Part shown: positions 10,074 through 62,848 of the stretch, piece after piece | Layout: the number at the start of each line of letters is the position of its first letter | Position numbering within the stretch: the first letter of the stretch is position 1 | Assembly: GCF_001687565.2 (NCBI RefSeq) | Contig: NZ_CP016534.2 | Coordinates: 2,484,501-2,548,500 of the forward strand | DNA length: 64,000 nucleotides | From: Planococcus antarcticus DSM 14505 | Lineage (GTDB): Bacteria > Bacillota > Bacilli > Bacillales_A > Planococcaceae | Reading direction: 5' to 3' | Position numbers and translations under genes: made by a program | The notes under the pieces: model-generated | Told to the model about the DNA's origin: nothing | Database searches by the model: none | What the model saw: only the letters and a program-made list of their open reading frames with translations

Positions 10074-10894
10074 TAAATACCTTCGATTGTTTTTGGATCT
10101 ACAAAACCATACCCTTTGTCTTCTAAGCCTTGGATAATATCTGGAAGAGCTTCTGCAGTCCAATCTCGATCGTGCATCAATAAATTGGCACCATTATTTA
10201 AGTACTCGGTATCAATCATAATTCCCGTTAACGCCTGAGCATCTTGATACTGCTTTTCCCAGTCATAGCCGTATGTCCAATTCATCAAAACCATCTCTTG
10301 GTCTTTGACAAGCTGTTTACTAAAATCAGTATTTGAGCCAAAGGGAGCGCGGAAAAATTTCGGTTTTTCACCAATAATCTCTTCTACTGCTTTGTTTACT
10401 CGTAAAATTTCTTCTTCTTGTTGCTGCTCGGTAAGATCTTTTAAATTTTGATGACTTTCAGTATGATTGCCAATCACGAAGCCCATTTCATGGATTTTCT
10501 TCACTTGTTCCTTTTTTTCATCTGTATCTAAAAAATGTCCATTAACAAAGAAAATTGCTGGGATTTCTAGACTTTTCAAGGTTTCCGCCATTTCCATTGA
10601 ATGTTGGTCAGGTGCATCATCAATGGTCACCAATACGACTTTTTCAGCAGCATCTGCTATAGGCTGGACGGACCAATTGGCTGTATTGATTCGATATTGA
10701 GCTTCAACCACACCTTCTTCTTCCATTGCTTCTTTTGTTACCTCTTCTTCTTTCACTTCTTGTTTTTTTGTTTCAGCATTTTTTTCGATATTTTCTATTT
10801 CTTCAGCTTCACTCGAAGAAGTTTTAGTTTTTTCCCCACACGCCGTCAGTAAAAACGTCGCCGCTACAATAGCTATCCATTTTTTATGTACCAA
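10073..10894 (-). CDS. Lipoprotein polysaccharide deacetylase (NodB domain)
   Basis: 273 residues. Basic N-terminus, hydrophobic helix and lipobox LTAC (Cys19) show a lipoprotein held on the outer face of the membrane. A Glu/Lys-rich linker (about 24-62) precedes a NodB homology domain with TIDDAPD at 90-96 (Asp92/Asp93), HTESH at 144-148 for the metal histidines, and RAPFG. The family removes acetyl groups from peptidoglycan or other GlcNAc polymers; the substrate is not evident. TTG at 10894 is spaced eight bases from GAAGGGG; the longer frame to 10918 reads through that site. It lies downstream of the pdh terminator, with no obvious partner. Confidence 0.85.
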   Translation of the reverse strand: MVHKKWIAIVAATFLLTACGEKTKTSSSEAEEIENIEKNAETKKQEVKEEEVTKEAMEEEGVVEAQYRINTANWSVQPIADAAEKVVLVTIDDAPDQHSMEMAETLKSLEIPAIFFVNGHFLDTDEKKEQVKKIHEMGFVIGNHTESHQNLKDLTEQQQEEEILRVNKAVEEIIGEKPKFFRAPFGSNTDFSKQLVKDQEMVLMNWTYGYDWEKQYQDAQALTGIMIDTEYLNNGANLLMHDRDWTAEALPDIIQGLEDKGYGFVDPKTIEGI

Positions 10895-10953
10895 TCTAAA
10901 CACCCCTTCACTATACAAATCTTACCACAAGAAACAATTTATTTCCCAAAAAA

Positions 10954-10977
10954 AAGAAGCCGCAGGGGCGACTTCTT
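10954..10977 (-). terminator. Terminator of the pdh operon
   Basis: On the minus strand, AAGAAGTCGC, a short loop and GCGGCTTCTT (one G-U pair) followed by a T-run, immediately after the pdhD stop at 10983. Confidence 0.75.
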
Positions 10978-10982
10978 ATCAA

Positions 10983-12392
10983 TTATTTCATGGTATGAAT
11001 CGGTGTTCCAAGAGCTACTTCTGCTGCTTCCATTGTAACTTCAGCGAGCGTTGGATGAGCGTGAATTGTCATTGCGATATCTTCCACTGTCATTCCAGCT
11101 TCGATTGCAAGACCAAGTTCGGCGATCATGTCTGATGCACCCGCACCAACAATTTGTGCGCCTAACAATAAGCCATCAGATTTGCGTGAAACCAGTTTCA
11201 CGAACCCTTCAGATGCGTTTAATGAAAGCGCACGGCCGTTAGCTCCGAATGGAAATTTAGCAGCGCTTGCTTCAAATCCTTCTGTTTTGGCCAGCTCTTC
11301 GGTTAACCCGACGCTTGCGAGTTCAGGATCTGTAAAGCAAACAGCCGGAATTGCCAAATAATCAACCTCTGATTTTTCGCCAGCGATTGCTTCAGCAACA
11401 ACTTTGCCTTCGTAAGAAGCTTTGTGAGCCAATTGCAATCCAGCTACAACATCGCCAATTGCATAGATGTTCGGGATGTTTGTACGGCATTGCTTGTCCA
11501 CTTCAATCAAGCCCCGATCGGACATTGTCAGATTCAATTCTTCAAGGCCCATTTCGTCTGTATTTGGACGACGGCCAACTGTTACAAGCGCATAATCAGC
11601 TTCCAGCGTTTTTTCTTCTCCGCCTGCTTCATAAGTTACTTTAACGCCAGAATCACTTTCTTCTACACCTTTAGCAGATGCTTTAGTGATGACTTCGACA
11701 CCTTTTTTCTTTAATCCTTTTTTGACGATTGCTGTCATTTGCTTTTCGAATCCAGCAAGAATGTCAGGTGCGCCTTCAAGGATGGTTACTTCAGAGCCTA
11801 GATTAGCATATGCTGTTCCTAGTTCTATACCAATATAGCCACCACCGATAACGACCATTTTTTTCGGGATTTCCTTAAGAGCCAATGCGCCTGTAGAATT
11901 AATGACACGATCGGTAAATTTGAAAGTCGGGATTTCAACTGGACGAGATCCAGTAGCAATAATTGCATTTTTGAATTTATACGTTTGTGCTGAATTATCA
12001 TCCATGATGCGAACTGTATTTTCGTCGACGAAATAAGCTTCGCCGCGCAAGATTTCGACTTTATTGCCTTTCAGAAGAGATTCAACACCGCTAGTCAATT
12101 TCTTCACGACGCTGTCTTTAAATGCTTGTGCTTTTTCAAAGTTAATCGTAACTTCTTTCGCAACAATGCCCATATCTTCCGAATGCTGAGCTTCTTCAAA
12201 ACGGTGACCAACAGAAATCATCGCTTTAGAAGGGATACAACCGACGTTCAAACAAACGCCGCCAATATACTCTTTTTCAACGATTGTTACTTTTTGGCCC
12301 GTTTGTGCTGCGCGAATAGCCGCAACATAACCGCCAGGGCCTGAGCCGATTACAAGCGTATCTGTTTCAATTGGAAAATCTCCTACTACCAT
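10983..12392 (-). CDS. pdhD: Dihydrolipoamide dehydrogenase (E3)
   Basis: FAD enzyme that reoxidises dihydrolipoamide in the pyruvate (and probably other 2-oxoacid) dehydrogenase complexes. 469 residues, the usual length. Seen: [13 protein letters not shown]-binding loop at 16-25, redox pair Cys47/Cys52 in [22 protein letters not shown]-binding loop near residue 188, and the C-terminal HAHPTLAE active-site His-Glu. ATG at 12392 after GGAGG, five bases beyond the pdhC stop. Last gene of pdhABCD. Confidence 0.97.
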
Positions 12393-12397
12393 AAGTT

Positions 12398-13780
12398 TTA
12401 CGCCTCCATTAATAGTAATTCAGGTTGACTTAATAAACGTTTAATATGATTTAATGCATGTTGTGCCGTTGCACCATCGATCATTCTGTGATCGAAGCTC
12501 AATGATAATGCTAACACAGGTGCTGCTACAATTTCACCATTTTTAATTACAGGTTTCTCTGCGATGCGGCCAATTCCAAGAATCGCCACTTCTGGATGGT
12601 TAATGACCGGTGTGAACCATTGCCCGCCGGCAGAACCGATATTTGTAATCGAGCATGAAGCGCCTTTCATTTCAGCAGCGGATAATTTACCATCGCGCGC
12701 TTTTGTTGCTAACCCATTGATTTCATCTGAAATCGTAAATACTGATTTACGGTCTGCGTTTTTGATAACTGGAACCATTAAGCCTTTTTCTGTATCTGCT
12801 GCAATTCCGATATTGAAATAATGCTTTTGGATAATTTCGCTTGTTTCATCATCAAATGATGTATTCAAAGCTGGGAATTCACGCAATGTGCTGACCAAAG
12901 CTTTTACTACGTATGGTAGATAAGTCAGCTTGATTTCTTTTTCTGCTGCAATATCTTTGAACTTTTTGCGGTGTGCTACGAGTTCAGTAACATCCACTTC
13001 GTCCATTAATGTTACGTGCGGAGCAGTTTGTTTAGAATGAACCATTGCTTTAGCAATTGCTTTACGTATTCCGGACATTTTCTCACGCGTTTCAGGGAAT
13101 TCACCTTCAGGAGCTGCTGTTGCTTTTGGTGCAGCTGCTGCTTGATCAGTGCTTTCTTCTGCTACTTCCTGTGGTGCTTCTTCAGAATCTGTTGGTGTTG
13201 CTGCTTTTTGGTCACCGTTCATGAACGCTTCAATATCTTCTCTTAATACGCGACCATTATTACCAGAACCCGTTACTTGTTTAATGTCTATATCACTGTC
13301 GCGCGCAAATTTGCGGACAGATGGCATTGAAATCACACGAGCAGTTGGGTCAGACTCTGTTGTTGAATCAGTCTGTGTTTGTGAGCCAGCACCAGTCTGT
13401 TTTTTCGGTTCTTCTTTAACAGGTGCTTTATCAACATCTCCACCAGATTCAGCAGTACCCGCTTGTACTTGCTCTTCGGTTTCTTCTTTCACTTCAGGAG
13501 TTGCTTCTTCTTTAGCACCCTCGTCCTCGTCTTCATCGGCATCAGGTGCATCGATCCGGATCAATATATCGCCAACTACGGCTACTGTTCCTTCCTCAAC
13601 CAGTACTTCTTCAATTGTTCCAGATACTGGTGATGGAATTTCAACGACAGCTTTATCATTTTGCACTTCAACAAGCACATCGTCTTCTTCGATTTTATCT
13701 CCTGCTTTGACAAACCACTTTACAATTTCACCTTCATGGATACCTTCTCCAATATCCGGCAAACGAAATTTATAAGCCAT
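12398..13780 (-). CDS. pdhC: Dihydrolipoamide acetyltransferase (E2)
   Basis: Core of the pyruvate dehydrogenase complex, transferring acetyl from lipoyl to CoA. 460 residues: one lipoyl domain (about 1-78, lipoyl Lys43 in VQNDKAVVE), a long Ala/Glu/Thr-rich linker, a peripheral subunit-binding domain (starting [10 protein letters not shown]), a second flexible linker, then the catalytic domain ending with FDHRMIDGA, which carries the active-site His and Asp. ATG at 13780 is chosen because GAAAGGGTG lies upstream; the GTG three codons earlier is part of that site. Single lipoyl domain as in other Bacillales. Confidence 0.97.
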
Positions 13781-28325: not shown

Positions 28326-28334
28326 CAAACTAAA

Positions 28335-28373
28335 AAACAGTAGCCCGGACCTTAAAGGTTTGGGCTACTGTTT
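28335..28373. terminator. Bidirectional terminator, MFS gene / VWA operon
   Basis: AAACAGTAGCCC / GGGCTACTGTTT with an inner ACCT / AGGT pair, T-runs on both strands. It ends the plus-strand MFS gene and the eight-gene minus-strand operon. Confidence 0.9.
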
Positions 28374-28391: not shown

Positions 28392-30965
28392 TTATTTTTT
28401 GCTTTTCGCTTTTATTAATTGATCAATTGCCGTAGGCGAAGAATCTTCTTCTTTTGCAGCTTTTCTCTTAACTAGAGGTGCCGGAAGTCCGAAACGACGA
28501 AGCGTGATATCTGTAAAAAACAAGATCATTGCGATAAACAGGACAATCAGTTGAATCGACCGAATACTGCCACTCTCGTAAGACATATCCCGAAATGCTG
28601 CGTCTAATGTCTCTAAGACCTGTCCACCTGTCCGCTCAGCCAGTGTCGTCATTAAAGACATGTTCGCCTCTGCCGTTTGATATTCATCACCATAAGGGAT
28701 CGTCAGGCCTGTTTTGTAGGCAGCTCCTGTTTCGTTACTGATGCTAAAAAATACTAATCCGGGCTCAGCATCGATTTTCACTTCTACTTTCCCAGGTGCT
28801 ACCGGTTCCGTCTGCAACGGAATCTCGTTGCCTTGCTCATCCACTGCCGCAACCGTTAAAATTGCCGAGCTATGAGTAGGATCTTCGACTGTGTAAACGC
28901 CTTGTTCTTTTCGCGCGACTGAAAAAGGAATTTCTTCAAACGTAGGCTGCAATTCAGCTGCAGTTTTATTCCAAAAATCTGGCCACTTCGACCAACTCTG
29001 AAAATCTCCGCTCCATGCCCCGCTTCCAGATGTAAAGGCAATCGTTTTTCCAAGGCCATAATTCCAACTCGCTAGTACGGGATCTTCTTCTTCACTTTCA
29101 AGTGCTACTAAAGCTGTGCTTTTCGCAGTGGTTGCAATATAGGTATTCAGCTGTGGTACACCGTCTGCAAATAAAGGATTCCATTTGCTGTCGTATACCA
29201 CCGGATAAAACGGCTTATCGACAATGTAAGTTCGCGACATCATAATCGTCTCACGGGATAAAATAGCGGGGATTGTCGTGGCATCTGTGACGTCGTAAAA
29301 TCGCCCGCTACCTGTATTAGCTAGTTGCTCTAATAAATTTCGATCTGCATCTTGTCCAATGGAGACGGTCGATAAGGTAATATTATTGTCTTTCCCGTTT
29401 TCGATTAACGCATCATAATCATTGGATGTCGCGGATTGTCCATCTGTTAACAGGATAATATGTTTGCGCTGCAGTTTTAAATCTTCTAATTCCATATAGG
29501 CCTGCTGCAACGAACGATAGATTTCAGTTCCACCACCTGGTGTAATACTCAAAATTTTGTCTACTGCTTTTTCCGGATCGGCTACTTTAGCTGTCGGCAA
29601 AATTTCCCACGGTTTGTCATCAAATGCGATTACGCCTAATGTATCATCGGGTCGTAACAGTTCAACAGAACGAGCAGCTGCTTCTTTCGCTAGTTCCATT
29701 TTCATGCCCATCATGCTTCCCGAGCGGTCCATAACAATCATCAAGCCGAGTGAAGGCAATTCATGCTTGCCTTTAACTTCCATTTCGACTGGCAATAAAC
29801 GCTCGATTGGCGTTTTAAAATATCCGCCTAGACCAAAGCTTTGATCACCACCAACCATCATAAACCCAACACCAAATTGACGAACCGCTTGTTCAATAAT
29901 GGCCATTTGTTGTTCTCCTACAGATGTTCCAGAGACATTATCAAAAATAATCGAATCATAACGAAGTACGGCAGACAAACTGCTCGGCAATTGGTCAGCA
30001 GCTAGTTCCGTTACGCCTAAATTATTCGTATCCAATAAACCTGGAATTGGACTTGGAACACCGCCGTTCACGACTAGCACTTCTGGGTTTCCAGAAACTT
30101 CTGTAATGCTAAACAATGAATTGTTTTCAAGGTACGCATCTTTCGCCGTTTCTAAACGGACTTCATACTTTTGAAGCCCTTCCGAATTGGCAGGATACGA
30201 ATAGCTATAGACATTTTGACCTTCTACGACTTTGACCTCTTTACTATCCAACTCTTTATCATTGGCAGAAAAAATAAGTTTAGCTATTGATTCAGCATCT
30301 GAGTCAATGGCTACAGTAAAGGTTTGCGATTCACCTAAAAATGCACGTGATGGCGTTTCAAAGCGGCTAATCGCCATATCATTTTTAGCGATTTGTTCGA
30401 CCGGCCATATATCCACTTGAAGACGCTCAGACTGTAGTCGATTTAAACTTTCGATAGCAGATGATTGTGTTTCATTGCCATCCGTTAAAATGACAAGTCG
30501 CGTCGCTAAGTCAGTATCTCCACTATTTGAAGCGAGTTCTAACGCCCGGGCGATATTGGTGTGGCTACTGTTTCCAACGGTTAGTTCTGCCGGTAAAGTT
30601 TGCGGATCGTTGGTCATTGGTAACAAGCTTTGGAAATCCTCCGCAAATGTATAGACCGCGATAGACTGATGATCTTTTTTGGCTTCTAATGCTTCTTCTA
30701 TTGCCACCGTCATTGCTGTTTGCATTCCTTCAAGAGACGCAGAACGGTCCATAAGAAAAATAACCTGCTCTTCTTTTACAGGACTGAATAACGAAGGAGC
30801 TGCCAAAGCGAAAATCAACAACGTGACAGCCACGGTTCTAAAAACAAACACAGCCTTTATCATTTTAGAGCTAGCTGAAGAATGCTTGAGTGCAAACCAG
30901 CCAAAATAAAACAGTGCCGGAATGAGTAACAACAGCCAGATTGGTTTATCGGGTTGCAATTCCAC
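28392..30965 (-). CDS. Double-VWA membrane protein with GATase1-like domain
   Basis: 857 residues. Order: two N-terminal helices (about 9-25 and 38-58), VWA domain 1 with MIDAS DRSAS (73-77) and TDG at 161-163, a beta-rich stretch, a class I glutamine-amidotransferase-like domain (about 293-395, VGGDQSFGLGGY), VWA domain 2 with MIDAS DRSGS (413-417) and TDGQS, a beta region and a C-terminal helix (about 806-828). Both MIDAS sites look intact. The bulk lies outside the membrane. GTG at 30965 after GGGAGG, overlapping the upstream gene by 20 bases. Last gene of the operon; probably a metal-dependent adhesion or assembly module; exact role unknown. Confidence 0.8.
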   Translation of the reverse strand: MELQPDKPIWLLLLIPALFYFGWFALKHSSASSKMIKAVFVFRTVAVTLLIFALAAPSLFSPVKEEQVIFLMDRSASLEGMQTAMTVAIEEALEAKKDHQSIAVYTFAEDFQSLLPMTNDPQTLPAELTVGNSSHTNIARALELASNSGDTDLATRLVILTDGNETQSSAIESLNRLQSERLQVDIWPVEQIAKNDMAISRFETPSRAFLGESQTFTVAIDSDAESIAKLIFSANDKELDSKEVKVVEGQNVYSYSYPANSEGLQKYEVRLETAKDAYLENNSLFSITEVSGNPEVLVVNGGVPSPIPGLLDTNNLGVTELAADQLPSSLSAVLRYDSIIFDNVSGTSVGEQQMAIIEQAVRQFGVGFMMVGGDQSFGLGGYFKTPIERLLPVEMEVKGKHELPSLGLMIVMDRSGSMMGMKMELAKEAAARSVELLRPDDTLGVIAFDDKPWEILPTAKVADPEKAVDKILSITPGGGTEIYRSLQQAYMELEDLKLQRKHIILLTDGQSATSNDYDALIENGKDNNITLSTVSIGQDADRNLLEQLANTGSGRFYDVTDATTIPAILSRETIMMSRTYIVDKPFYPVVYDSKWNPLFADGVPQLNTYIATTAKSTALVALESEEEDPVLASWNYGLGKTIAFTSGSGAWSGDFQSWSKWPDFWNKTAAELQPTFEEIPFSVARKEQGVYTVEDPTHSSAILTVAAVDEQGNEIPLQTEPVAPGKVEVKIDAEPGLVFFSISNETGAAYKTGLTIPYGDEYQTAEANMSLMTTLAERTGGQVLETLDAAFRDMSYESGSIRSIQLIVLFIAMILFFTDITLRRFGLPAPLVKRKAAKEEDSSPTAIDQLIKAKSKK

Positions 30966-32679
30966 GACGGTACACCTCCCATTCCAGAAGCACTAACAGT
31001 AAGATTATTCCTATAATAAATGGCACAAACGAAAAACGAACGGTATCTTGTGCAGCTTTCGCCTGCCCCATTGCATAAGACGACCCAGCAGAAAGCTCCT
31101 TTTCTTGAGAAGGTAGCTGTACAATCATGGTCATGTCTTTTTCGTCACCCACTACTTGGTAAACACCCGGTTCGTTAGGTGCCACAAAAGGTCCGCTTCC
31201 TTCAATATAGGAATGGCGATAAGCACCGTCTCGAAAAATTTCCCATTCTCCTGTTGGTGAAGCTAACGAAACGGATCGATGTTCGTTCGGTTGGAAAAAA
31301 CCAAGAAATTCCGCATCGCCTGATAAACTTTCCATTGCGCTCCATAAAAACAAAGGAAAAGAAGGAGAAAGCGGCCAGTCGGTCAATTGAACATCTGTCA
31401 GCACGACAATATCTCCTTTTGGAGAAACTTGAATAAAGGGATGGTCATCTATTGTGGCGATGGTTTCATAGCCTTCAAAAGGCGGATACAGTTGTGAAAC
31501 ATAAACTTCATCCAATGAGGCATATGTGAAAAGTGGATGTGGCTTTGTCTCAATTTGTCCGGTCACTTCAAACGGATTTTCATCATTTCTCCCAAACATT
31601 AAAATGGGTGTCGTTGCTTCTAGTAAATCACGTTGATTGGTAACTAGGGGCAATCCAGCGTTTGGCTGCAATTGAGTGGATTCGGCTAAACTAACATCTA
31701 AAGCGAGTGAACGAAAACCACTTGCGATTAATTCATGCAAAGTCGAGTCAATAACAACTGCGTTAACTGGCGGGGCTAAATATGTTGCCATTGTGTTATC
31801 CGCGGCATAATCATCCGACACTTCTAGCTCTGCTTGCCATAGCTTGTCGTTTGGCAACTCTTCAAACGGAACGAGCAATTCTTCCGCCGCTTCAAGTTTT
31901 ACTTCTACTGCTTTTTCGAAACTGCCAGATGATAAACGCACAGTAGCATTCATGGGTTTTTCGCTATTATTGACTACTTGAACGATACCTCGCATGTCTT
32001 TATCCGTTTCCGAAAGACCCAGTTGGCGAATGGCTACATTGTTCAATTTTTCTGAATAGCCATGAACTTGATAGCTTTGACCGGTTTTATTGGCAAGGAT
32101 AGCGCGGTCTAAATGATCGGTGAAAATGTGAATAATCGTTGAGTCAGTGGTCGCAAGCGTATCCGCAAATAAAATCGTTTGCTCGATTTCGGCATTTTCA
32201 TAACTTACCGCTAGTTGGTCAATTGCGTTTTCAACTCGCTCAAAATCTTGCTCGTTGCGAATGATGACCTCTGGGCTACTACCGGTCGTAACAATTGTGA
32301 CGGGCTTGCCTCCTGCTTGTGACGCCAATTTCTTCATCTTGGCCTGCTGTTTTTCAAAATGCGTTGGAGAACCTGCGAGCATCGTTGCTGACGTATCCAC
32401 AATAAAAATAAAGTCATTACCAGCTAATGTTTCTGATTCGCTAAAAGGCTCGATTAACGCAATTACACAAAAAATAAGTGCTGCCAATTGAAGATAAAAC
32501 AATAAATGATGCTGTAACTTTTTTAAATAAGGCGATGCTTGCAGCTCTTTCATTCGTTCTTGCCAAAATAAGATTGAAGAAACGTACTGATCTTTGTATT
32601 TTTTTCTAAAGAAATAATAAAGAATGACGGCTAGCGGCATAATTGCCGTCCAAATCATTCCCCAATTTGCTGCTCCCAT
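30946..32679 (-). CDS. BatA-like membrane VWA protein
   Basis: 577 residues. Starts with the BatA-type N-terminal pair of helices (about 7-23 and 60-78) around the RKKYKDQYVSSILFW stretch, then a VWA domain with a MIDAS written DTSAT (95-99) instead of DxSxS, a long beta-rich extracytoplasmic part and a C-terminal helix (about 550-568). The Thr variant of MIDAS may still bind metal. ATG at 32679 after GAGGTG, 11 bases beyond the DUF58 gene. Partner of the MoxR ATPase upstream by context; known Bat proteins act in envelope stress tolerance. Confidence 0.8.
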   Translation of the reverse strand: MGAANWGMIWTAIMPLAVILYYFFRKKYKDQYVSSILFWQERMKELQASPYLKKLQHHLLFYLQLAALIFCVIALIEPFSESETLAGNDFIFIVDTSATMLAGSPTHFEKQQAKMKKLASQAGGKPVTIVTTGSSPEVIIRNEQDFERVENAIDQLAVSYENAEIEQTILFADTLATTDSTIIHIFTDHLDRAILANKTGQSYQVHGYSEKLNNVAIRQLGLSETDKDMRGIVQVVNNSEKPMNATVRLSSGSFEKAVEVKLEAAEELLVPFEELPNDKLWQAELEVSDDYAADNTMATYLAPPVNAVVIDSTLHELIASGFRSLALDVSLAESTQLQPNAGLPLVTNQRDLLEATTPILMFGRNDENPFEVTGQIETKPHPLFTYASLDEVYVSQLYPPFEGYETIATIDDHPFIQVSPKGDIVVLTDVQLTDWPLSPSFPLFLWSAMESLSGDAEFLGFFQPNEHRSVSLASPTGEWEIFRDGAYRHSYIEGSGPFVAPNEPGVYQVVGDEKDMTMIVQLPSQEKELSAGSSYAMGQAKAAQDTVRFSFVPFIIGIILLLVLLEWEVYRRGIATR

Positions 32680-32690
32680 GCCGCTTCACC

Positions 32691-33551
32691 TCACCCAATC
32701 CAGTTTTTGCGTATCATTTGATGAAATAACACTTGCTCGATTCCGTCTTCTACGTGTACTGGCAAATAAGCAATGCCATATGTGCGACAAAGAGATTCCA
32801 AACCTTTACTATGAAGCTCACTTTGCTTTTGGTATGCACGAAGTGCTTCTTCTGTCACCGTCACGCTCGTTACTTGCTGCGTCTCATCGTCGATAAAACG
32901 CAAATCACCTTTATAAGACGGCAGTCGTTCGTCTTGTGTAGTCAAATGAATAAACCGGATATCGTGCGCAAAAGCCGGAGCCTGTCTGAAAAACACCTGC
33001 CAATCTTCCAGCGGTTCTAAGCCATCGGACACGATGAATAATACCGTAGAATCTTTTGCGGCATGAAAACTTGCCTGACTCGCAAACGACACGTTTTCAG
33101 GGTCTGGCATAGCAGATACAAAATGTTCAAACAGCTTTTTGGCTGATTTTCCTTTTTTACGAAAAGGAATCATTTGTTTTTGCCCAGCTGACACCGTTAA
33201 GCGGTCATCACTTCCTAACACCATTAAGCCAAGTGAAAACGCCAATTGCTTCGCAAATAGCCATTTATTGTCCATTGATTTTGAACTATCAAGCAAGATG
33301 TGGATACGCATTTCTTGTTCATCTAGAAAACGTTTAATGTAGACGCGTTCAGTTCGTGCATAAACGTTCCAGTCAATATGGCGGACATCGTCTCCCGGAT
33401 GGTATTCACGAAAATCAGAAAAATCCAGTGAACTACCAAAACGCATCGACCGGTGAGAACCTTTATGGTGTCCCTTAATTTTTGCTTTTGTTCCAATGAC
33501 ATAGCGACTAAGACGCGAGCCCCAATCAGCTGGCAAATTCAATAAAGTCAT
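32691..33551 (-). CDS. DUF58 protein (MoxR partner)
   Basis: 286 residues, soluble, without the two N-terminal helices seen in longer DUF58 proteins. The diagnostic stretch YHPGDDVRHIDWNVYARTE lies near residues 50-68, followed by a VWA-like fold whose first strand ends ILLDSSKSM, a DxSxS. It overlaps moxR by four bases (ATGA), a very common coupling in these operons. DUF58 proteins are assumed to be targets or adaptors of MoxR ATPases; no activity is established. Confidence 0.88.
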   Translation of the reverse strand: MTLLNLPADWGSRLSRYVIGTKAKIKGHHKGSHRSMRFGSSLDFSDFREYHPGDDVRHIDWNVYARTERVYIKRFLDEQEMRIHILLDSSKSMDNKWLFAKQLAFSLGLMVLGSDDRLTVSAGQKQMIPFRKKGKSAKKLFEHFVSAMPDPENVSFASQASFHAAKDSTVLFIVSDGLEPLEDWQVFFRQAPAFAHDIRFIHLTTQDERLPSYKGDLRFIDDETQQVTSVTVTEEALRAYQKQSELHSKGLESLCRTYGIAYLPVHVEDGIEQVLFHQMIRKNWIG

Positions 33552-34540
33552 TTCAAGACGCCTTTACCAGCAGCACTTAGCACACTATCGATCAACTCAT
33601 CTGCGTTTTTCCCCATCGCTTCAGCTTCGTAATTTAACAATAAGCGATGTCTTAATACAGGTTTTGCCACATGTTTTAAGTCCCCAATCGACACATGGTA
33701 ACGTCCTTCCATTAACGCACGTGCTTTCGCAAGACGAATCAAACTTTGAAGACCACGCGGGCCGCTACCGTATTGAACATATTGTTGAATCGCTTCGTGT
33801 TCTGAATGCTCGGGATGTGTGCTTTGAATCATGTCGACAGCTACCATCAAAATATCTTCTGCCATCAACACTTCTTTCACCATATCTTGTGCATCAATTA
33901 AGCTGGTTGTATTCATCTTCTTATTAAGATTAATGGTTTGAGAGCCCGTCGTTCTGCGGCTAATTTCTGCAAGTTCATTACGGCTTGGATAAGCAACAAG
34001 GATTTTGCAAAGAAAACGGTCCATTTGTGCTTCTGGCAAAGGATACGTTCCTTCCATTTCAATGGGATTTTGTGTTGCCAAGACGAAAAATGGTCGTGCC
34101 ATTTTTTTCGTATCACCAAGTATGGTCACTGTCTTTTCACCCATCGCCTCTAGCAACGCACTTTGTGTTTTCGGTGTAGCACGGTTGATTTCATCTGCTA
34201 GCACCATTTGATGAAAAATCGGACCTTCTCGAAAAGTAAATTGCTGGCGCCCTTGTGTATCTCGTTCAATAAGACTGGTTCCCGTAATATCTGAAGGCAT
34301 CAAATCGGGTGTAAACTGAATTCTTGAAAACGACAAATCGAGCACATCCGAAATGGTTCGAATTAACATTGTTTTACCAAGACCAGGTAATCCTTCTAGT
34401 AAGGCATGACCATCCGCTAAAATAGCGTATAAGGAAAACTCAACCGCACTTTCTTGCCCGACGATAAACCGTCCAATTTCGGATTTGACTTCTTGAAGCA
34501 ATTGGCTCATTTCTGTAAATTGATCGGTTGTGTATGTCAT
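33548..34540 (-). CDS. MoxR-family AAA+ ATPase
   Basis: 330 residues. Walker A GLPGLGKT (50-57), Walker B LADEINRA (114-121), sensor 1 in LATQNPIE and the arginine-finger region PEAQMDRF follow MoxR order. Cytosolic chaperone-like hexamer thought to mature or insert a metal into VWA partners, several of which are encoded downstream. ATG after AAGAGGG, 14 bases past the Gly-Gln protein gene. A second MoxR gene (different subgroup) lies at 50.5 kb. Confidence 0.93.
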   Translation of the reverse strand: MTYTTDQFTEMSQLLQEVKSEIGRFIVGQESAVEFSLYAILADGHALLEGLPGLGKTMLIRTISDVLDLSFSRIQFTPDLMPSDITGTSLIERDTQGRQQFTFREGPIFHQMVLADEINRATPKTQSALLEAMGEKTVTILGDTKKMARPFFVLATQNPIEMEGTYPLPEAQMDRFLCKILVAYPSRNELAEISRRTTGSQTINLNKKMNTTSLIDAQDMVKEVLMAEDILMVAVDMIQSTHPEHSEHEAIQQYVQYGSGPRGLQSLIRLAKARALMEGRYHVSIGDLKHVAKPVLRHRLLLNYEAEAMGKNADELIDSVLSAAGKGVLK

Positions 34541-34554
34541 AAAAACCCTCTTTT

Positions 34555-36081
34555 CTATTTGTCGGTTTCAATATCTGTAAAGTACTGTTCTACAATGGTT
34601 TGCAAATCAGGCGGTAATTGCAGACGATCCGCACTAGAGAAATATGAAGTCGAGTAATCCCCCACTACGTCCGCATAAGGCTGAACCGTTCCTTTTGTCG
34701 CTGGAACAGCGCCGTACTGTTCGCCGGCCGCCTCTCCTTCTCCTACTTTTCCGCTAACGACTGACGTGTCACTTTGCCCTCCAATTCGAGAAGGTACAGT
34801 TAACAGATCTCGGCTACCTTGACCTTTACCAGCTCCACCGCCTTGACCTGCACCTTGGCCCTGACCTTGTCCTTGTCCTTGTCCTTGTCCTTGTCCTTGT
34901 CCTTGTCCTTGTCCTTGCCCTTGTCCTTGTCCTTGTCCTTGTCCTTGTCCTTGTCCTTGTCCTTGTCCTTGTCCTTGTCCTTGTCCTTGTCCTTGTCCTT
35001 GTCCTTGTCCTTGTCCTTGTCCTTGCCCTTGCCCTTGCCCTTGCCCTTGTCCTTGTCCTTGTCCTTGGTTTTGTGATTGGCTATTTTTTGACTCCGATTC
35101 TGACTCTCCAGCTTCTCCAGTAGTTTCACTTTCTTCATTTTCTAATGCTTGCCCAGTAGAATTAGATTCACCGGATTTTCCTTCAGTGTCAGAAGATTGG
35201 CCTTCAGAAGAATCATTTTCTTTGCTACTAGTTAATTGCTCTCGCTTGGCGATGGTTTGCTGCAATGGAAATGCTACGGGTTTCCCCATATTGCTTAAAG
35301 CTGTTTGTGTGTTTCCGGCCTTTTCAGCTAATTGCCCAGCAGCTTTTTCAATATCTTCGCTAATCTCTTTAGCATCTGGATTTTTGCCTTCTGCCAGCTG
35401 ACGTTTTTTCAAATCCAATTCTTTTTGTTTTTTGACGATTTCTTTTAATATGGCTTCTGGATTTTCTTTGTCTTCGATTGTTGCTTGTAATGTATTCAAT
35501 TCTTTTTTAACTACTTTTGTTTCTGCTTGTTTTTTGATTTCATCAATTTCTTTCTTAATATCTTCTACCAATTCAAGTTCTTTTTCCACATCAGTTGCTT
35601 GATTTTGCAAATTACTAGGAAAGACTAAAAGCAAGACCATGAACGTCGCGCTAATGATCGCTCCAATTAACCACTTAGGACGTAGCCATACTTTGCGTTC
35701 TTTGCGGAACAATTGGTAGCTATACGGAATGGTCTTGGCTGTTTCACGAGTCAATTCTTCAGTCAACGCGTTGCGATCTGTTAGCTTCCACACGGTCAGC
35801 AACTGATTATGAGGTGTAAAACGGTCCAGTTCTTGCACTGCTTTTTGCACATTGGGCAAGCCTTTACTAGACAACACAACCCAACTTATCACGACAGCAA
35901 TTCCTGCTACATATGCATAAAATTCATAATAAGGAAGCACGAACAATCGTGATACTAACAGTAATGCTGTAGCTAAAGCCAGACCTGCAAATAAAGCAAA
36001 CTGAAAAACACGACTGATATGAAGCGTCTTTAACAGCCGCTCAACTTTTTTAACATAGATGCGTATATCACGATTGTTCAT
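34555..36081 (-). CDS. Membrane/coiled-coil protein with long Gly-Gln tract
   Basis: 508 residues. Two helices near 26-44 and 51-69, another at about 146-165, then a charged coiled coil (about 175-275), a Ser/Glu-rich low-complexity stretch, an almost uninterrupted (Gly-Gln)n run at about 339-405, and a conserved-looking end where PPDLQTIVEQYF precedes the stop. The C-terminal motif and topology recall the DUF4175-type proteins found in MoxR/VWA operons. The tract comes from a six-base DNA repeat, so its length may vary between strains. Probably a spacer domain outside the membrane. ATG after AAGGAGGG. Confidence 0.75.
   Translation of the reverse strand: MNNRDIRIYVKKVERLLKTLHISRVFQFALFAGLALATALLLVSRLFVLPYYEFYAYVAGIAVVISWVVLSSKGLPNVQKAVQELDRFTPHNQLLTVWKLTDRNALTEELTRETAKTIPYSYQLFRKERKVWLRPKWLIGAIISATFMVLLLVFPSNLQNQATDVEKELELVEDIKKEIDEIKKQAETKVVKKELNTLQATIEDKENPEAILKEIVKKQKELDLKKRQLAEGKNPDAKEISEDIEKAAGQLAEKAGNTQTALSNMGKPVAFPLQQTIAKREQLTSSKENDSSEGQSSDTEGKSGESNSTGQALENEESETTGEAGESESESKNSQSQNQGQGQGQGQGQGQGQGQGQGQGQGQGQGQGQGQGQGQGQGQGQGQGQGQGQGQGQGQGQGQGQGQGQGQGQGAGQGGGAGKGQGSRDLLTVPSRIGGQSDTSVVSGKVGEGEAAGEQYGAVPATKGTVQPYADVVGDYSTSYFSSADRLQLPPDLQTIVEQYFTDIETDK
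34863..35067. repeat. Hexanucleotide tandem repeat (TTGTCC)n inside a gene
   Basis: About 33-34 copies of a six-base unit, mostly TTGTCC with a few TTGCCC variants. Because six is a multiple of three, copy changes keep the reading frame. All frames through the repeat are open: Gly-Gln in the gene, Asp-Lys in a second minus frame, Ser-Leu on the plus strand. Confidence 0.95.
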
Positions 36082-36093
36082 GAGAATCCCTCC

Positions 36094-36936
36094 TTATTTG
36101 TATTTATTCATATTGACACGCAATTTTTTGACAGCTAATAAAAGACAGCCAGCTGATACAAAAACATAGAAAATGGCATAACCAATCCATAATGGAATGG
36201 GAACCATCGTCAAGCTTTGCAATTGATCTTCCATCGAGGGTTGTAGCAAAGTTAGCAACACTGCAGGCGGGTTAATGGTTGCCCAAAAATGAGCCATTGG
36301 TGAAATTGAAGACACCGTCGTACCCATTTGAGAAACTTGAACCGAAATCAGTAAGAAAAATGCTGTAACACCGGCGATGAAAATCATTGCTCCGTACGTG
36401 GCGATAATGGCAACAATGGTTTTTCGAATCAAGGTCGATAGCATGACACCTATACTAGCAATTGCCAGTAAGGTCAGCATATAAAACAAGAAAATATAAA
36501 ATAGCTGACTAGGCGAAACGCCTCCGTATAAAAACACTAAGCTGTATATCGGTAACCCCGACACAATCATCAATAACAAAAAGGCGATGGATGATGTCAT
36601 TTTCCCAAAAATAATTTGGAAAGAAGTTTGAGAGGTTGTCAGTAAAATATTCAAGGTCTGTTTTTCACGTTCTGTACTAATGGTTCCTGCTGTTAATGCT
36701 GGCGTAATGAATAAAATCAATCCTAATTGAATATACGTCATGATGCTAAATAGCATGAAACTTTCATCTGGACGGAAAAAACCATTACCAGTTAAGGATG
36801 TGGCTAGAAAGATAAAACCAAAAACAAAGACGCTCATCGCGATCAAATAAAACAAAATACCGGTAAAGCTTTTTAAGTTACGAAAGCGTAATTTAAGTTC
36901 TTTTACTAGTACCGGATTGGCAAAAAGGGTTTTCAT
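36094..36936 (-). CDS. ABC-2 type permease
   Basis: 280 residues, six predicted helices (near 22-50, 62-82, 110-135, 140-165, 170-195, 248-270), basic N-terminus ELKLRFRN, and the amphipathic TISTEREKQTLNILLTT segment near residue 86 typical of ABC-2/NatB/GldF permeases. Overlaps the ATPase gene by four bases. Gene order (ATPase, permease, then an auxiliary protein upstream) recalls gldA-gldF-gldG; that is an analogy only. Substrate unknown. Confidence 0.87.
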   Translation of the reverse strand: MKTLFANPVLVKELKLRFRNLKSFTGILFYLIAMSVFVFGFIFLATSLTGNGFFRPDESFMLFSIMTYIQLGLILFITPALTAGTISTEREKQTLNILLTTSQTSFQIIFGKMTSSIAFLLLMIVSGLPIYSLVFLYGGVSPSQLFYIFLFYMLTLLAIASIGVMLSTLIRKTIVAIIATYGAMIFIAGVTAFFLLISVQVSQMGTTVSSISPMAHFWATINPPAVLLTLLQPSMEDQLQSLTMVPIPLWIGYAIFYVFVSAGCLLLAVKKLRVNMNKYK

Positions 36937-37868
36937 CCAATTTCCACTCCTTTTGTAATCGCCATAAAGACATCTTCCAAATCTGTCTCTTCTTCTGAGA
37001 ACGATAAAATCGGCAATTTTTGATGGATGGCACGTTGCAATAACTGGAGTTGATCTTCATCTGTTCCCCGGTAGAAAAACTGAATGCTATTTTTGTCTTG
37101 TTGTACTTCTATTTGAGAAACAAACGGATCCATTTCAAAAAATGCAATGACCGATTGCATTTCGCCTACTAGTTTGACACGAAGCACTTTTTCGCTTTGA
37201 AGCTGTGCTTGAATGTCAGTTACAGAACCTTGTGCAATCAATTTGCCATTATCAATGACGCCAATGCTATCGCACATTTCAACAAGTTCCGGAAGAATGT
37301 GAGAAGAAATCAAAATGGTTTTGCCCATCACTTTTAGCTCTCGCAAGATATCTCTCATTTCTACACGCGCACGTGGATCTAGTCCTGAAGCAGGTTCGTC
37401 TAATATTAATATTTTCGGATCATGAATCAGCGCCCTTGCCAAACAAAGACGCTGTTTCATGCCGCGAGACAATAAATCGACGTAGTCATAACGCTTATGT
37501 TCTAAATTAACCAATTCCAAAAGCTTCGGGATTAATACAGCGCGTTCTTTTGGCTTGATCCCATAACTAGCACCGTAAAAATCTAAATATTCATCTGTTT
37601 TTAGTTGGTCATAAACACCAAAGAAATCGGGCATGTAACCAATTTGCTTCCGCACTTCTTGAGGGTTTTTCGTCACACTTATTCCATTGATAAATGCATC
37701 TCCAGCCGTTGGTTGAAGAAGCGTAGCCAAAATTGAAAAGGTGGTTGATTTTCCTGCTCCGTTCGCACCTACAAAGCCAAAAACCGTACTATCTTCTACT
37801 ATTAAATTCAAATCCTGTAGGGCGTAAAAAGAACCATATTTTTTTGTTAATCCAATTGTTTCAATCAC
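36933..37868 (-). CDS. ABC transporter ATPase (partner of ABC-2 permease)
   Basis: 311 residues. Walker A GANGAGKST (34-42), signature LSRGMKQR (133-140), Walker B ILILDEPASGLD near residue 153, plus a C-terminal extension ending EEEDL-type (SEEETDLEDVF). Export-type CcmA/NatA/GldA subfamily. GTG at 37868 after AAAGGAGTG, overlapping the 785-residue gene by four bases. Confidence 0.92.
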   Translation of the reverse strand: MIETIGLTKKYGSFYALQDLNLIVEDSTVFGFVGANGAGKSTTFSILATLLQPTAGDAFINGISVTKNPQEVRKQIGYMPDFFGVYDQLKTDEYLDFYGASYGIKPKERAVLIPKLLELVNLEHKRYDYVDLLSRGMKQRLCLARALIHDPKILILDEPASGLDPRARVEMRDILRELKVMGKTILISSHILPELVEMCDSIGVIDNGKLIAQGSVTDIQAQLQSEKVLRVKLVGEMQSVIAFFEMDPFVSQIEVQQDKNSIQFFYRGTDEDQLQLLQRAIHQKLPILSFSEEETDLEDVFMAITKGVEIG

Positions 37869-40222
37869 GGAGCAATCACTCCTTTCAATTTAACTTTCGG
37901 CACTACCACTTCAGGGTTTCCTGAACTTTCGGTAATCTTCAACTTCAGTTTGATGGCGCCTTCTGGACCGATATACTGTTTTGCTTTTTCGACAAATTTT
38001 TGATTAGACTCTGTAATTTCTTCGTAACTTCCACTGACCACATTCAATATGCTGACAGTGACGTTTTGTCCTGTTTTAGTAAGTGCTAATTCAGTCCATG
38101 TTGATTTTTTCAAATCAATTTCTTCTGGCAAAGTATAGGTCAGATCAAATTCACCAGGTTCAAAATAATAGAGATACGGATCATTTGAGACATTTTCAAA
38201 AAAACCTGTATTATTGGCTGCGACCAGATTCATCGTCAAGGCATCTACATTCAATGTGATGTCGCCTTTTAATGTTAGTTGCGGTTTAAAACTTTGTGCA
38301 ATAAGGTGAATAGATTTTACAGATGCTCGTTGATTTTCAAGCGTGATTGGTACGATGGCATCTTTCGTATAAGCGACCACATAAGGTGATTTACCGTTTT
38401 TCGATAATTGCTCGAAAGATGTGGATAGCAAAGTTTGACGACGCGCTTTTTCCAACTCTTTTAAATTTGCTACGGGCTGATAGGCATATGATTGACCGAC
38501 AGGCGCTGCCGGTGACAAAATCGCTGACTGAACGGTTTCATTAACTTTCAAGGTTTCACCAGGATTAAGCTCGCCTACATCCATAAGACGTGTACCTGTC
38601 CAAATTGAAACCTCTTCAACCGCAAACGGAAAATTATTCTGAATAGTTCCAGTGATCTTTTCGTCAGCTACAGTTAAGTCGATGTTAAAGTCACCACTGT
38701 CTTCTATATACGATTGTCCCATAATCGATTGTACAGACCAATAACGCATATCTCGCAAAGTCATTTGACTATTGGTTGCACCTCTTTCCAAAATTGCCGA
38801 AAGATAAGGCTCTGTTGAAGAAAATTCGTTTGCTATGCGACTGGTCATTGTAGTAGAAGTTGGTGCTGTAAACTGGTAGTTGCCACCGCGGTTTGACAAT
38901 AACGAATTAACATAATAACCTTTTAATCCACTATCCGCATCTACTTCAAAAAAGCCGGTTTGTTGAATTTGTGGATTGCCAATTCGGTCTTTTGCACCAA
39001 AAGCGAATAATCCAATTGAAGTCAATATGGCAACTGCTGGAATGATAACCCAAGCATATTCTCGCTTGTCTTTTTTCTTCAGTACAATATAAAGTACCGG
39101 GACAATCAATAAAATATACAGCAATACAATCGCCAGTATAAATGGTTTTGACACTTCAAAGCTTTCAAATAGCTCGTTAACATTTCCTACTTCATAGATC
39201 ATATAATCAAGTATGGATTGTCCACCCATTGAGTTATAGTTTGTGGCAACTGCTGGGAAAAAACTCGACATCATTTGGCTATATCCTTCTTGACTGGAAA
39301 CCGTTTCATCTCCAAGTGAAAAACTCATTTGTGTCAAGCTACCCGAGCCAATTGGTTGTGTAGCAGCAAAAACTTGACCGTCTTTTTGTAGCTTGGCTGT
39401 CGCTCCTTCTTTAACTGTTGCTTGAAAAACAGGAACTGCCGTTTCTAATCCTGGAACTTTTACATCTTTCACATCTGCTAATTCCAAAGGCAAGTATTCG
39501 CTCAAATTGCCAAGTTCTACTTGTAGATTAGTTGTTGAGCCTGTGACAACATGCCCACCTTGTTGAATCCATTGCAAAACTGCTTTTTGCGTAGGTGCCG
39601 GCAAATCACTATAAGCAAACTCATCAATGACCAAATAATCGATCATGTCCCAAGCCTGCACTTCAGTCGGCACTGTAAATTCTTTTAGTTGATTAAGGTG
39701 GAATACTTCGATTCCTTCGCTTGTTGGAACGGTCAATTGCTTTAAAGGCGATAAACGATCTGGATTATCTGTTAATGTCGCTACAAATAATGACATTGGC
39801 GTATAGTAAGATGGCTGTATCGTTTTCTTGCCTTTAAACTTAATGGACTTTCCTTTTTCCCAACCACCTTCAAACAAGAAAATACTTTGGTCGCTCGGTG
39901 CTCCAGAATAATACATATCCGATAATCCAGATGAAGCGATTTGCAACGTTTTGCTTTCGCCTTCCGCAAGCTCGATTGGCAGGGCCATACCGACCCCGAG
40001 ATTATACGTCTCTGAAAAACTGAGCACCAAATCCCCAGAAAATGCTGATCCTTCATTGGTTACTGTGAACTGGAGAGGCAATCCTTTTTCATACTTTACT
40101 TTATTTTGAAAACCGGCACTCGAATCAATAGTGATTTGTGGCGCCGCTAAAGAAGGTTGTGGCATGGCAAACAAACTCATGAATAATGCGAAAACAAAAA
40201 ATGCCAGCAAGCGTTTATGCAT
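37865..40222 (-). CDS. Large exported membrane protein, first gene of the ABC/MoxR/VWA operon
   Basis: 785 residues. Signal peptide (hydrophobic 5-24, cleavage likely after SLAA), an Ig-like beta region, a flavodoxin/amidotransferase-like segment near 190-235 (IDYLVIDEFAYS, then QWIQQGGHVV), a central pair of helices (about 360-420) with basic KKKDKREY between, and a large C-terminal beta-rich part. No enzymatic residues recognised. The amidotransferase-like segment is reminiscent of GldG/DUF4350-type auxiliaries of ABC-2 systems. ATG after AAAGGGGG; no clear promoter found upstream, and the 200-base gap there holds only the dapL terminator. Confidence 0.75.
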   Translation of the reverse strand: MHKRLLAFFVFALFMSLFAMPQPSLAAPQITIDSSAGFQNKVKYEKGLPLQFTVTNEGSAFSGDLVLSFSETYNLGVGMALPIELAEGESKTLQIASSGLSDMYYSGAPSDQSIFLFEGGWEKGKSIKFKGKKTIQPSYYTPMSLFVATLTDNPDRLSPLKQLTVPTSEGIEVFHLNQLKEFTVPTEVQAWDMIDYLVIDEFAYSDLPAPTQKAVLQWIQQGGHVVTGSTTNLQVELGNLSEYLPLELADVKDVKVPGLETAVPVFQATVKEGATAKLQKDGQVFAATQPIGSGSLTQMSFSLGDETVSSQEGYSQMMSSFFPAVATNYNSMGGQSILDYMIYEVGNVNELFESFEVSKPFILAIVLLYILLIVPVLYIVLKKKDKREYAWVIIPAVAILTSIGLFAFGAKDRIGNPQIQQTGFFEVDADSGLKGYYVNSLLSNRGGNYQFTAPTSTTMTSRIANEFSSTEPYLSAILERGATNSQMTLRDMRYWSVQSIMGQSYIEDSGDFNIDLTVADEKITGTIQNNFPFAVEEVSIWTGTRLMDVGELNPGETLKVNETVQSAILSPAAPVGQSYAYQPVANLKELEKARRQTLLSTSFEQLSKNGKSPYVVAYTKDAIVPITLENQRASVKSIHLIAQSFKPQLTLKGDITLNVDALTMNLVAANNTGFFENVSNDPYLYYFEPGEFDLTYTLPEEIDLKKSTWTELALTKTGQNVTVSILNVVSGSYEEITESNQKFVEKAKQYIGPEGAIKLKLKITESSGNPEVVVPKVKLKGVIAP

Positions 40223-40394
40223 GATAATCCCCCTTTTACTCGTCTCTTTATTAGTACGCTAGTAAATTAAATTAGTTCCATCTTCTCACAAGCAAAATCT
40301 AAATAATTTGAACCCTGCGATTCTTACTGATGGTACTCTGGTAAACAAGCTTGTCGATTGCTTCCAGTTCTACCTATTCAGTGTTTCTAATAAA

Positions 40395-40424
40395 AAAAGC
40401 AGACAGCCTGGGCTGTCTGCTTTT
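40395..40424 (-). terminator. Terminator of dapH-dapL
   Basis: AAAAGCAGACAGCC / GGCTGTCTGCTTTT perfect 14-bp stem, two-base loop, T-run on the minus strand; overlaps the dapL stop. The stretch 40.22-40.39 kb shows nothing else recognisable. Confidence 0.9.
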
Positions 40425-59769: not shown

Positions 59770-59797
59770 AAAAAGTAAACCTGAAGGCTTACTTTTT
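59770..59797 (-). terminator. Terminator of the RND gene
   Basis: AAAAAGTAA..CC / GG..TTACTTTTT stem with one mismatch, T-run on the minus strand; the swrC stop is inside it. Confidence 0.8.
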
Positions 59798-62700: not shown

Positions 62701-62848
62701 TGGTCACAACTACACCGATTGGCGGATTGAGTTCAGGGATTAACGTAATCGGGATACGAGTAAATGATACCGCTCCCAGAATAATGATCAAAAACATGAT
62801 AACTAGTGTAAAGACTGGTCTTTTTATCGAAAAATCGCTTATTTTCAC
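59789..62848 (-). CDS. swrC: RND efflux pump, SwrC/AcrB type
   Basis: 1019 residues, 12 helices with two large extracytoplasmic loops, full-length HAE1/AcrB family. Seen: N-terminus SIKRPVFTLVIM, GASPTEV in the pore domain, and the proton-relay GMLVDNAIVV in TM4. B. subtilis SwrC/YerP exports surfactin and helps tolerance to acriflavine-type compounds. No membrane-fusion protein or outer channel gene is nearby, as expected for a Gram-positive. No regulator adjacent. ATG at 62848 after AAAGAGGG. Confidence 0.92.
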   Translation of the reverse strand: MKISDFSIKRPVFTLVIMFLIIILGAVSFTRIPITLIPELNPPIGVVVTNYPGASPTEVNEKVTKPLEANLATLPGIKSIQSNSQEGSNFILLEFDWSTNIDDVQSDIAQRIDQTPIPDDSNDPRFLKFDPSQFPILQLSLRSSDPDADVRVIAEELETELRQTDGVASVNISGSLIEEIQIELDQAELEERGLQQSDVVQLIQANNISLPGEPIETEDGRNLTTRIISTLTNVEEIRDLVLTIDPIEGDNITIGDVAEVNVSERESNSETRTNEEPAVLLSALQESQANTADVSDAFQERLDELLSEERFEGVQADILFDQGDYVKLAIGNIGQTLVLGGIFAMLVLFFFLRGIKSPIIIGVAIPYSVIVTFVLMFFADFALNILTLGALALGIGMLVDNAIVVIENIERHLAMGKNAKKAASEGAKEVSGAIIASTMTTVAVFIPVIFISGLIGEIFFEFALTISFSLFASLAVALTVIPMMASRMLGKPGTKPKVQKDTSKSVKAFEGSVIWALRHRIIVLFTALVLLVVGAFGVMQVGTEFIPATDEGFVSVSVELENGSSRAATDEVVNLIEDELKLEEEVDVYVSLIGSTQQGQAQGSAESNVAEIYVKLVDLADRDRSIFDFVDDVQPQILETVGERAMVSFNLQTAAGSSPNTLSFTVTDTDRSRLDGAVADIETALAELPEVTELTNDRQETIDEIQMTINREAATEYGLPPVQIAQTVNNITRGVLATQVLTDNDEVLSVYVAYEEGERNSLEKLRALSLRTPAGEFVELQELADIEVAQGPVSIQRVDQSDSVSFTLQHQSSITLGDMSDQVDTTIESLNLDENTLISFGGDRELLDNSINDMMMAVLLAVVLVYIVMAAQFESFKYPLVIMFTVPLMAIGVAIALFVTQTPISITAVIGILVLVGIVVNNGIVLVDYINQRKEAGMDSYDAIVTSVHDRRRPILMTALTTILGLLPLAIGIGEGTEINQPMGITVIGGLISSTLLSLYIVPIVYSLFDRQTRRMNKK

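Follow-up and report, generated by a model that had tools for sequence, protein, structure and literature searches.

An operon of Planococcus antarcticus joining a GldAFG-like ABC-2 trio to a MoxR/VWA module, with a likely link to ECF-type envelope stress control

What could bring an ABC-2 transporter and a MoxR/VWA chaperone module together in a single operon? This question is raised by a locus of Planococcus antarcticus DSM 14505, at which eight genes follow each other in a 64,000-nucleotide stretch of contig NZ_CP016534.2 (positions 2,484,501 to 2,548,500, hereafter "the window"), in the order: auxiliary protein ("aux"), ABC ATPase, permease, Gly-Gln protein ("GQ"), MoxR, DUF58, BatA-VWA and double-VWA. 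Our comparison shows one operon built of two separable modules, the first three genes (the trio) and the last five, which together form an ancient, conserved unit. As for its function, we give a probability of roughly one half to an envelope operon switched by an extracytoplasmic function (ECF) sigma factor, in which a MoxR/VWA module of the RL3499-RL3502 kind would assemble or gate a GldAFG-like ABC-2 complex.

The eight consecutive open reading frames (ORFs) are on the minus strand and run from 40222 to 28392, separated by three gaps (12, 14 and 11 bases) and joined by four overlaps (4, 4, 4 and 20 bases). Their coordinates were checked and bear out the layout claimed in an earlier note on this DNA, namely eight same-strand genes with four overlaps and gaps of at most 14 bases, and Pfam agrees with the families assigned there (ABC_tran, ABC2_membrane, MoxR, DUF58, BatA with VWA, and VWA). 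Aux (37865..40222, 785 aa) has a signal helix, a GATase1/GIFT-like domain, a fold that was seen by model, two central transmembrane (TM) helices and C-terminal beta domains. It is followed by the DrrA/GldA-like ATPase of an ABC-2 exporter (36933..37868, 311 aa; Pfam ABC_tran and NCBIfam) and a distantly GldF-like ABC-2 permease (36094..36936, 280 aa; Pfam ABC2_membrane and NCBIfam). GQ (34555..36081, 508 aa) combines three TM helices, a stretch judged by eye to be coiled-coil-like, 35 Gly-Gln repeats at residues 340-409 and a C-terminus that keeps the conserved motif LPxDLQ..V..YF. The MoxR-type AAA+ ATPase (33548..34540, 330 aa; AAA_3 and AAA_lid_2, AAA_3 E 5e-62) reaches 38.8 bits with Pfam bpMoxR (cut-off 27), yet 208 bits with AAA_3. 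The DUF58 protein (32691..33551, 286 aa) carries a DxSxS motif and no predicted TM helix; a second DUF58 gene of the same genome is found outside the operon (G000:C1:974927-975364, L002). The last two genes encode membrane proteins, one with a BatA N-terminal domain and a VWA domain in which DxSxT replaces DxSxS (30946..32679, 577 aa; PF07584 at 42.1 bits with a cut-off of 25.9, together with VWA_2), and one with two VWA domains (28392..30965, 857 aa), both carrying a DxSxS motif that is invariant among 13 aligned sequences.

To what extent are these genes kept together? In 100 genomes sampled from the order, all belonging to one family, the double-VWA gene was found in 69, aux in 74 and the permease in 73, while DUF58 matched in 80 (69 strongly, at E 1.8e-54 or better, and 11 only weakly). 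No genome had double-VWA without aux, and five had aux without double-VWA. The presence of both ends in 69 of the 74 aux-carrying genomes agrees with the single conserved operon proposed earlier; within the family, the two halves do not occur independently in most relatives. The complete eight-gene order was observed in all 16 loci, from 11 genera, hand-picked from the 69 genomes with at least one per genus; at one of them (L048) the GQ gene was missed by BLAST and assigned by position and alignment. Four aux-only loci from three genera (L049-L052) keep aux, ATPase and permease and jointly miss the last five genes, and it is this loss as a block that defines the two modules. The fifth aux-only genome (G078), with 15,400 masked N, was excluded. 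At L049, the bases following the permease resemble the start of GQ in a sister locus, scoring 37 where 300 shuffles reached 29 at most, thus the block was lost at least there. Relics of the five genes were also sought by protein search in the trio-only loci; the two weak MoxR matches obtained in L052 (E 0.005-0.007) were judged to be chance.

The same order extends far beyond the family. In a class sample of 250 genomes, double-VWA was found in 44 genomes and aux in 91, with 47 genomes, known from matches alone, having aux without double-VWA. All 44 double-VWA genomes had an aux match; in 42 of them, as paired by eye, the two genes share a contig and are no more than about 10 kb apart. In the phylum sample (299 genomes; thresholds E 1e-30 for double-VWA and 1e-5 for aux, overlaps counted by eye), 40 genomes had double-VWA and 47 had aux, comprising 32 with both, 8 with double-VWA alone and 15 with aux alone. 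A number of genomes belong to more than one of these samples. Loci were taken from the last 15 except G252, and the one from G224 (L085) ends at a contig end inside GQ, so that the operon may be complete there. With profiles derived from the family, the complete order was detected in 77 of 102 double-VWA loci fetched from outside it. A scan of named genomes confirmed at least 448 relatives, and in the 80 best of these all eight genes were in order at 65 loci. Ten of the 80 are truncated by contig ends, leaving five departures among the 70 untruncated loci, namely L095, L104, L107, L137 and L158. Complete loci in this set of 80 belong to Paenibacillus, Brevibacillus, Tumebacillus, several Bacillaceae (Bacillus among them), Clostridium, Syntrophomonas, Thermincola, Peptococcaceae and one metagenome-assembled genome (MAG) filed under Chloroflexota. 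In the latter (L148, Caldilineaceae), the full order could be due to transfer or to misbinning. Neighbouring genes of certain complete loci lie as much as 2 kb apart, with gaps above 300 bases at 21 junctions in total. The operon order is not a product of chance, since it is conserved across families and classes.

The two modules could also be functionally separate systems under a shared promoter, one an ABC exporter and the other a MoxR/VWA chaperone of some other membrane protein. Either half can indeed be found on its own in distant loci, as in L070 and L071, where MoxR and VWA genes are present but no trio was recognised, and the trio has outlasted the five-gene loss in the four family loci. 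Most aux-only genomes of the phylum sample show another setting: a PD40 beta-propeller gene lies directly upstream of aux in 11 of 11 tested trio loci, and an ECF-type sigma gene lies upstream of the PD40 gene in 11 of 11 tested; this setting makes the trio an independent module, linked to ECF control there as well. The arrangement of ECF sigma, PD40, aux, ABC ATPase and permease recurs at L073-L084 and L092, giving the trio another conserved context; among these loci, L075 appears frame-broken and L092 ends at a contig end. The single joint machine of the earlier note thus does not hold in its strict form: in four family loci and, with other partners, in other lineages the trio persists although the MoxR half is absent, and in distant loci all or part of the MoxR half occurs with no recognised trio. 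Against wholly separate functions are the deep conservation of the joint order and the fact that, in the family and class samples, every genome with double-VWA also gave an aux match. In addition, distances between loci increase jointly for all eight proteins (pairwise, r 0.74-0.92, 77 loci), although shared descent alone yields such a correlation. We consider two functionally separate systems behind one promoter unlikely.

What switches the operon on? About 30 bases upstream of the aux start codon, at 40252..40279 on the minus strand, lies a putative ECF-type promoter, GGAAC-N16-CGTACTA, that was overlooked in the first reading of the locus. It is the sole match in the window at up to one mismatch, where 0.01 would be expected, and the sole exact match across the 3.8-Mb genome. 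In 20 fetched family loci, 70 genes have an upstream gap of at least 60 bases; the strict form GGAAC-N16-CGTA was found before 13 of them, and all 13 are aux genes. Counting the window and L040, it precedes aux in 15 of 21 family sequences, as read from the sequence. A strict TGAAAC motif was considered as well and rejected, being present before aux in L042 alone of the 21.

The same promoter type precedes a second gene of the window genome (GGAACC-N15-CGTATTAAT), which was identified as DUF1002 by Pfam on its L178 relative. This gene was present in 61 of 61 genomes searched, and of 30 upstream regions read from these genomes, 10 carry GGAAC-N15-17-CGT, with 0.25 expected from shuffles; several others carry GCAAC or GAAAC variants. 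ECF-type promoters of the same kind were seen before the DUF1002 genes of L178, L183, L191 and L197. We take the DUF1002 gene to be ypuA, and ypuA is a sigma-M gene. In Bacillus subtilis, sigma-M promoters have the -10 consensus CGTC (PMC6827917), a ypuA reporter is listed among those induced by membrane-active compounds (PMC9978594) and ypuA promoters have been used as envelope-damage reporters. It is therefore likely that the operon is under ECF control, probably triggered by stress on the cell envelope. The envelope-stress setting suspected in the earlier note gains from this promoter and from the ECF sigma genes near the trio elsewhere.

Which known system does the operon resemble? MoxR ATPase, DUF58 and VWA membrane proteins share one operon here, a make-up that corresponds to the RL3499-RL3502 type. 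The RL3499-RL3502 operon of Rhizobium leguminosarum reportedly has DUF58/VWA partners and is said to have neither the ABC trio nor the Gly-Gln protein, the two operons being likened by description. According to PMC3893208, the MoxR protein RL3499 matters for membrane integrity and cell morphology, and the operon (Vanderlinde et al. 2011, J Bacteriol 193:2684) is cited both there and in PMC5118466. The likeness lies in a MoxR ATPase within a broadly conserved operon, whose mutation impairs membrane integrity and cell shape in that organism (PMC3893208, PMC5118466).

Another relative by description is an archaeal complex of arCOG01314 (DUF4350), vWA and MoxR proteins, predicted in 2015 to be a secretion system. 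According to PMC5898192, its genes are neighbours that encode a vWA protein, an ATPase of the MoxR/GvpN type and a GldG-like DUF4350 protein containing a flavodoxin-like domain; the anchored protein there spans the membrane with a single C-terminal TM helix and is partnered by Ig-like/S-layer proteins, in contrast to the two central TM helices of the Planococcus aux. Beyond the components of the archaeal complex, the Planococcus operon has an ABC ATPase, a permease, DUF58, two VWA membrane proteins and the Gly-Gln protein. By analogy, the ABC-2/aux and VWA proteins might export or anchor large surface proteins. The vWA and MoxR components are present here. Of 15 relatives of aux, 5 matched DUF4350 (5.1e-5 at best) and 7 matched DUF7408; the window aux itself matched neither. 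On the other hand, none of the eight genes stands out as encoding a cargo, none of them is an Ig-like or S-layer partner (Pfam, E 0.01), unlike the archaeal case, and the operon's neighbours differ between genera. Secretion or surface display is thus a tentative possibility that we would not favor.

The trio also invites comparison with GldA/GldF/GldG of Flavobacterium, with which it shares an ABC-2 ATPase, a permease and an accessory protein with, by model, a GIFT/GATase1-type domain, a domain that GldG carries. A gliding or adhesion machine with the VWA proteins as adhesins could be imagined: adhesion would suit both the VWA domains and a Gly-Gln arm that is long and flexible, and the ATPase scores 227.7 bits with the GldA model and the permease 35.3 bits with that of GldF. 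These scores are far under both curated NCBIfam cut-offs (402.6 and 288.5, respectively), GldG and every other gld model were unmatched among the eight proteins (NCBIfam), and a MoxR/VWA module is attached here. Gliding of the Gld kind is not known to occur in these Bacillota, and we regard such a machine as very improbable. GldG was missing among the aux fold matches listed, which is uninformative. Bat (aerotolerance) operons, which have MoxR and DUF58 neighbours, resemble the locus in the BatA N-terminal domain with VWA and in these neighbours, but neither BatD nor TPR-type Bat proteins were found among the eight (Pfam, E 0.01). Nor does the operon belong to the MoxR-vWA-beta-propeller ternary systems, as Pfam detected no propeller domain in the eight proteins.

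Under the reading that we prefer, an ECF sigma factor would turn on the operon under envelope stress. The acting part would be the GldAFG-like ABC-2 complex, in which the membrane-located ATPase and permease have the large aux as their extracellular partner, and the remaining five genes would provide an assembly or gating module. MoxR and the soluble VWA protein DUF58 would work at the cytosolic side, while BatA, double-VWA and the tethered Gly-Gln protein would be located in the membrane and outside. Spending ATP and using metal-dependent VWA contacts, the module may assemble, open or remodel the ABC complex, so that membrane or wall would be kept intact during stress. That the module acts on the trio, and not the reverse, is suggested by a one-sided dependence, because double-VWA never stands without aux in the family and class samples and the trio survives without the module. 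Both this direction and the control by stress through an ECF factor are what we infer from the genomic patterns.

Several observations weigh against this reading. The module, whole or in part, occurs without a recognised trio in L068, L070, L071, L095, L104 and L107, thus it may have a target other than the ABC complex. In G449, the sole aux match is of a different type and on another contig, and L158 (6524-10005, a MAG) has every gene but MoxR and DUF58, its GQ and BatA genes being separated by 122 bases. The aux of L052 is shortened to 666 aa, its match stopping at residue 653 of 785, hence the trio may be decaying there. Concerning the promoter, the strict form is missing in 6 of the 21 family sequences (L039, L042, L047, L048, L050 and L051). 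The longer pattern also arises at random: 22 chosen genomes have 19 sites as compared to 10 for a reversed-pattern control, of which 19, by coordinates, 11 are at this operon, 3 before the DUF1002 gene and 5 elsewhere. For this reason, the case for the promoter depends on its position and not on its count. Outside the family, the loose motif precedes 11 of 69 aux genes, a weak site, and in loci from there 13 of 579 gene upstreams have a site, 4 of the 13 lying before aux. Among the 14 sigma-region-4 loci of the window genome, none has a GGAAC site before its own gene, two sigma genes (L222 and L224) have a loose GAAAC-type site upstream of themselves, and the ECF factor reading the promoter was not found. 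Finally, neither physical nor phenotypic data on this operon were found.

Some of the trio-free loci have settings of their own. In L070 (6903-17396), MoxR, DUF58, BatA and double-VWA genes lie near an Omp85 gene, which indicates a diderm setting. L104 (7054-12796) and L107 (7328-12784) have DUF58, BatA and double-VWA without MoxR, and in L107, a complete genome, they lie behind aminotransferase class V, NifU_N and tRNA_Me_trans genes.

A different division of labour is hinted at by four further loci, in which an aux-like gene and a multi-TM protein in the place of the permease stand beside the MoxR-DUF58-BatA-double-VWA quartet: L066 (aux-like/multi-TM stretch at 10543-13228), L067 (11959-14761), L069 (13936-16973) and L072 (4625-7029). 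The aux-like genes score 39.9, 83.4, 41.5 and 10.5 bits, respectively, the permease profile matches L066 alone (16.2 bits), and no ABC ATPase was recognised within the fetched stretches of these loci. Perhaps, as they keep the quartet without a recognised ABC ATPase, the MoxR/VWA module acts as another motor, directly driving the ABC-2 permease and its extracellular partner via VWA-metal contacts and the Gly-Gln tether. If this is true, MoxR would have replaced the ABC ATPase in these loci, giving an AAA+-powered relative of ABC transporters. We hold this idea to be quite unlikely.

Of the eight proteins, aux and GQ have no Pfam match above curated cut-offs; the window aux matched neither an NCBIfam nor a Pfam family at E 0.01, and a sequence search for relatives of aux with solved structures found none. 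Named relatives of aux include that of P. kocurii, at 95% identity. One lead, kinship of GQ to DUF4175, was dropped, as no DUF4175 was among the 25 of 27 families listed for 13 relatives, and no open-licence paper pairing DUF4175 with MoxR was found. A role in anti-phage defence was likewise rejected: PADLOC on seven of the eight proteins (GQ excluded) gave only generic ATPase matches, for the ABC ATPase (mad3 at 90.4 bits and weaker ones) and for MoxR (IetA, 26.2 bits).

How is the operon delimited? Upstream, a predicted intrinsic terminator behind dapL (40395..40424, minus strand; a 13-pair stem with 6 G-C, then a T run) separates dapL from the operon; it has the longest stem among 10 terminator-like sites of the region in a consensus scan, for which 10.8 were expected. 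At the 3' end, between the operon and a convergent MFS gene, a terminator-like hairpin was noticed by eye (28331..28370, minus strand; CAGTAGCCC...GGGCTACTG and a T run), absent from the list of the consensus scan. An Rfam scan of the window gave no known RNA at gathering scores. The earlier note saw the operon as interrupting conserved gene order next to dapL. This holds in part: dapH and M20/dapL genes flank it in 7 of the 16 intact family loci, six of the own genus and L041; the MFS gene is on the opposite side in 13 of 16, with one intervening ORF in L045 and L048. Elsewhere in the window (59789-62848), an RND (ACR_tran) transporter of 1019 aa is encoded, in a genome that is presumably monoderm.

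Is the system, then, a new one? The parts and partial combinations are known, and the eight-gene, ECF-linked union in Bacillota appears to be new as a variant; operon-directed searches of the open-licence literature found no description of it. The earlier word "undescribed" may stand for the union of eight genes and not for its halves, since the MoxR/DUF58/VWA half is of the RL3499-RL3502 kind and the archaeal complex had already been predicted. The operon spans many families of Bacillota, and MoxR/VWA systems are widespread with few targets known. Related species that differ by a clean loss of five genes, with the ABC trio kept, offer a natural test, and the putative promoter points to the likely class of inducing signal. 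With these natural losses and the promoter at hand, the question of what a MoxR/VWA module acts upon would become directly testable.
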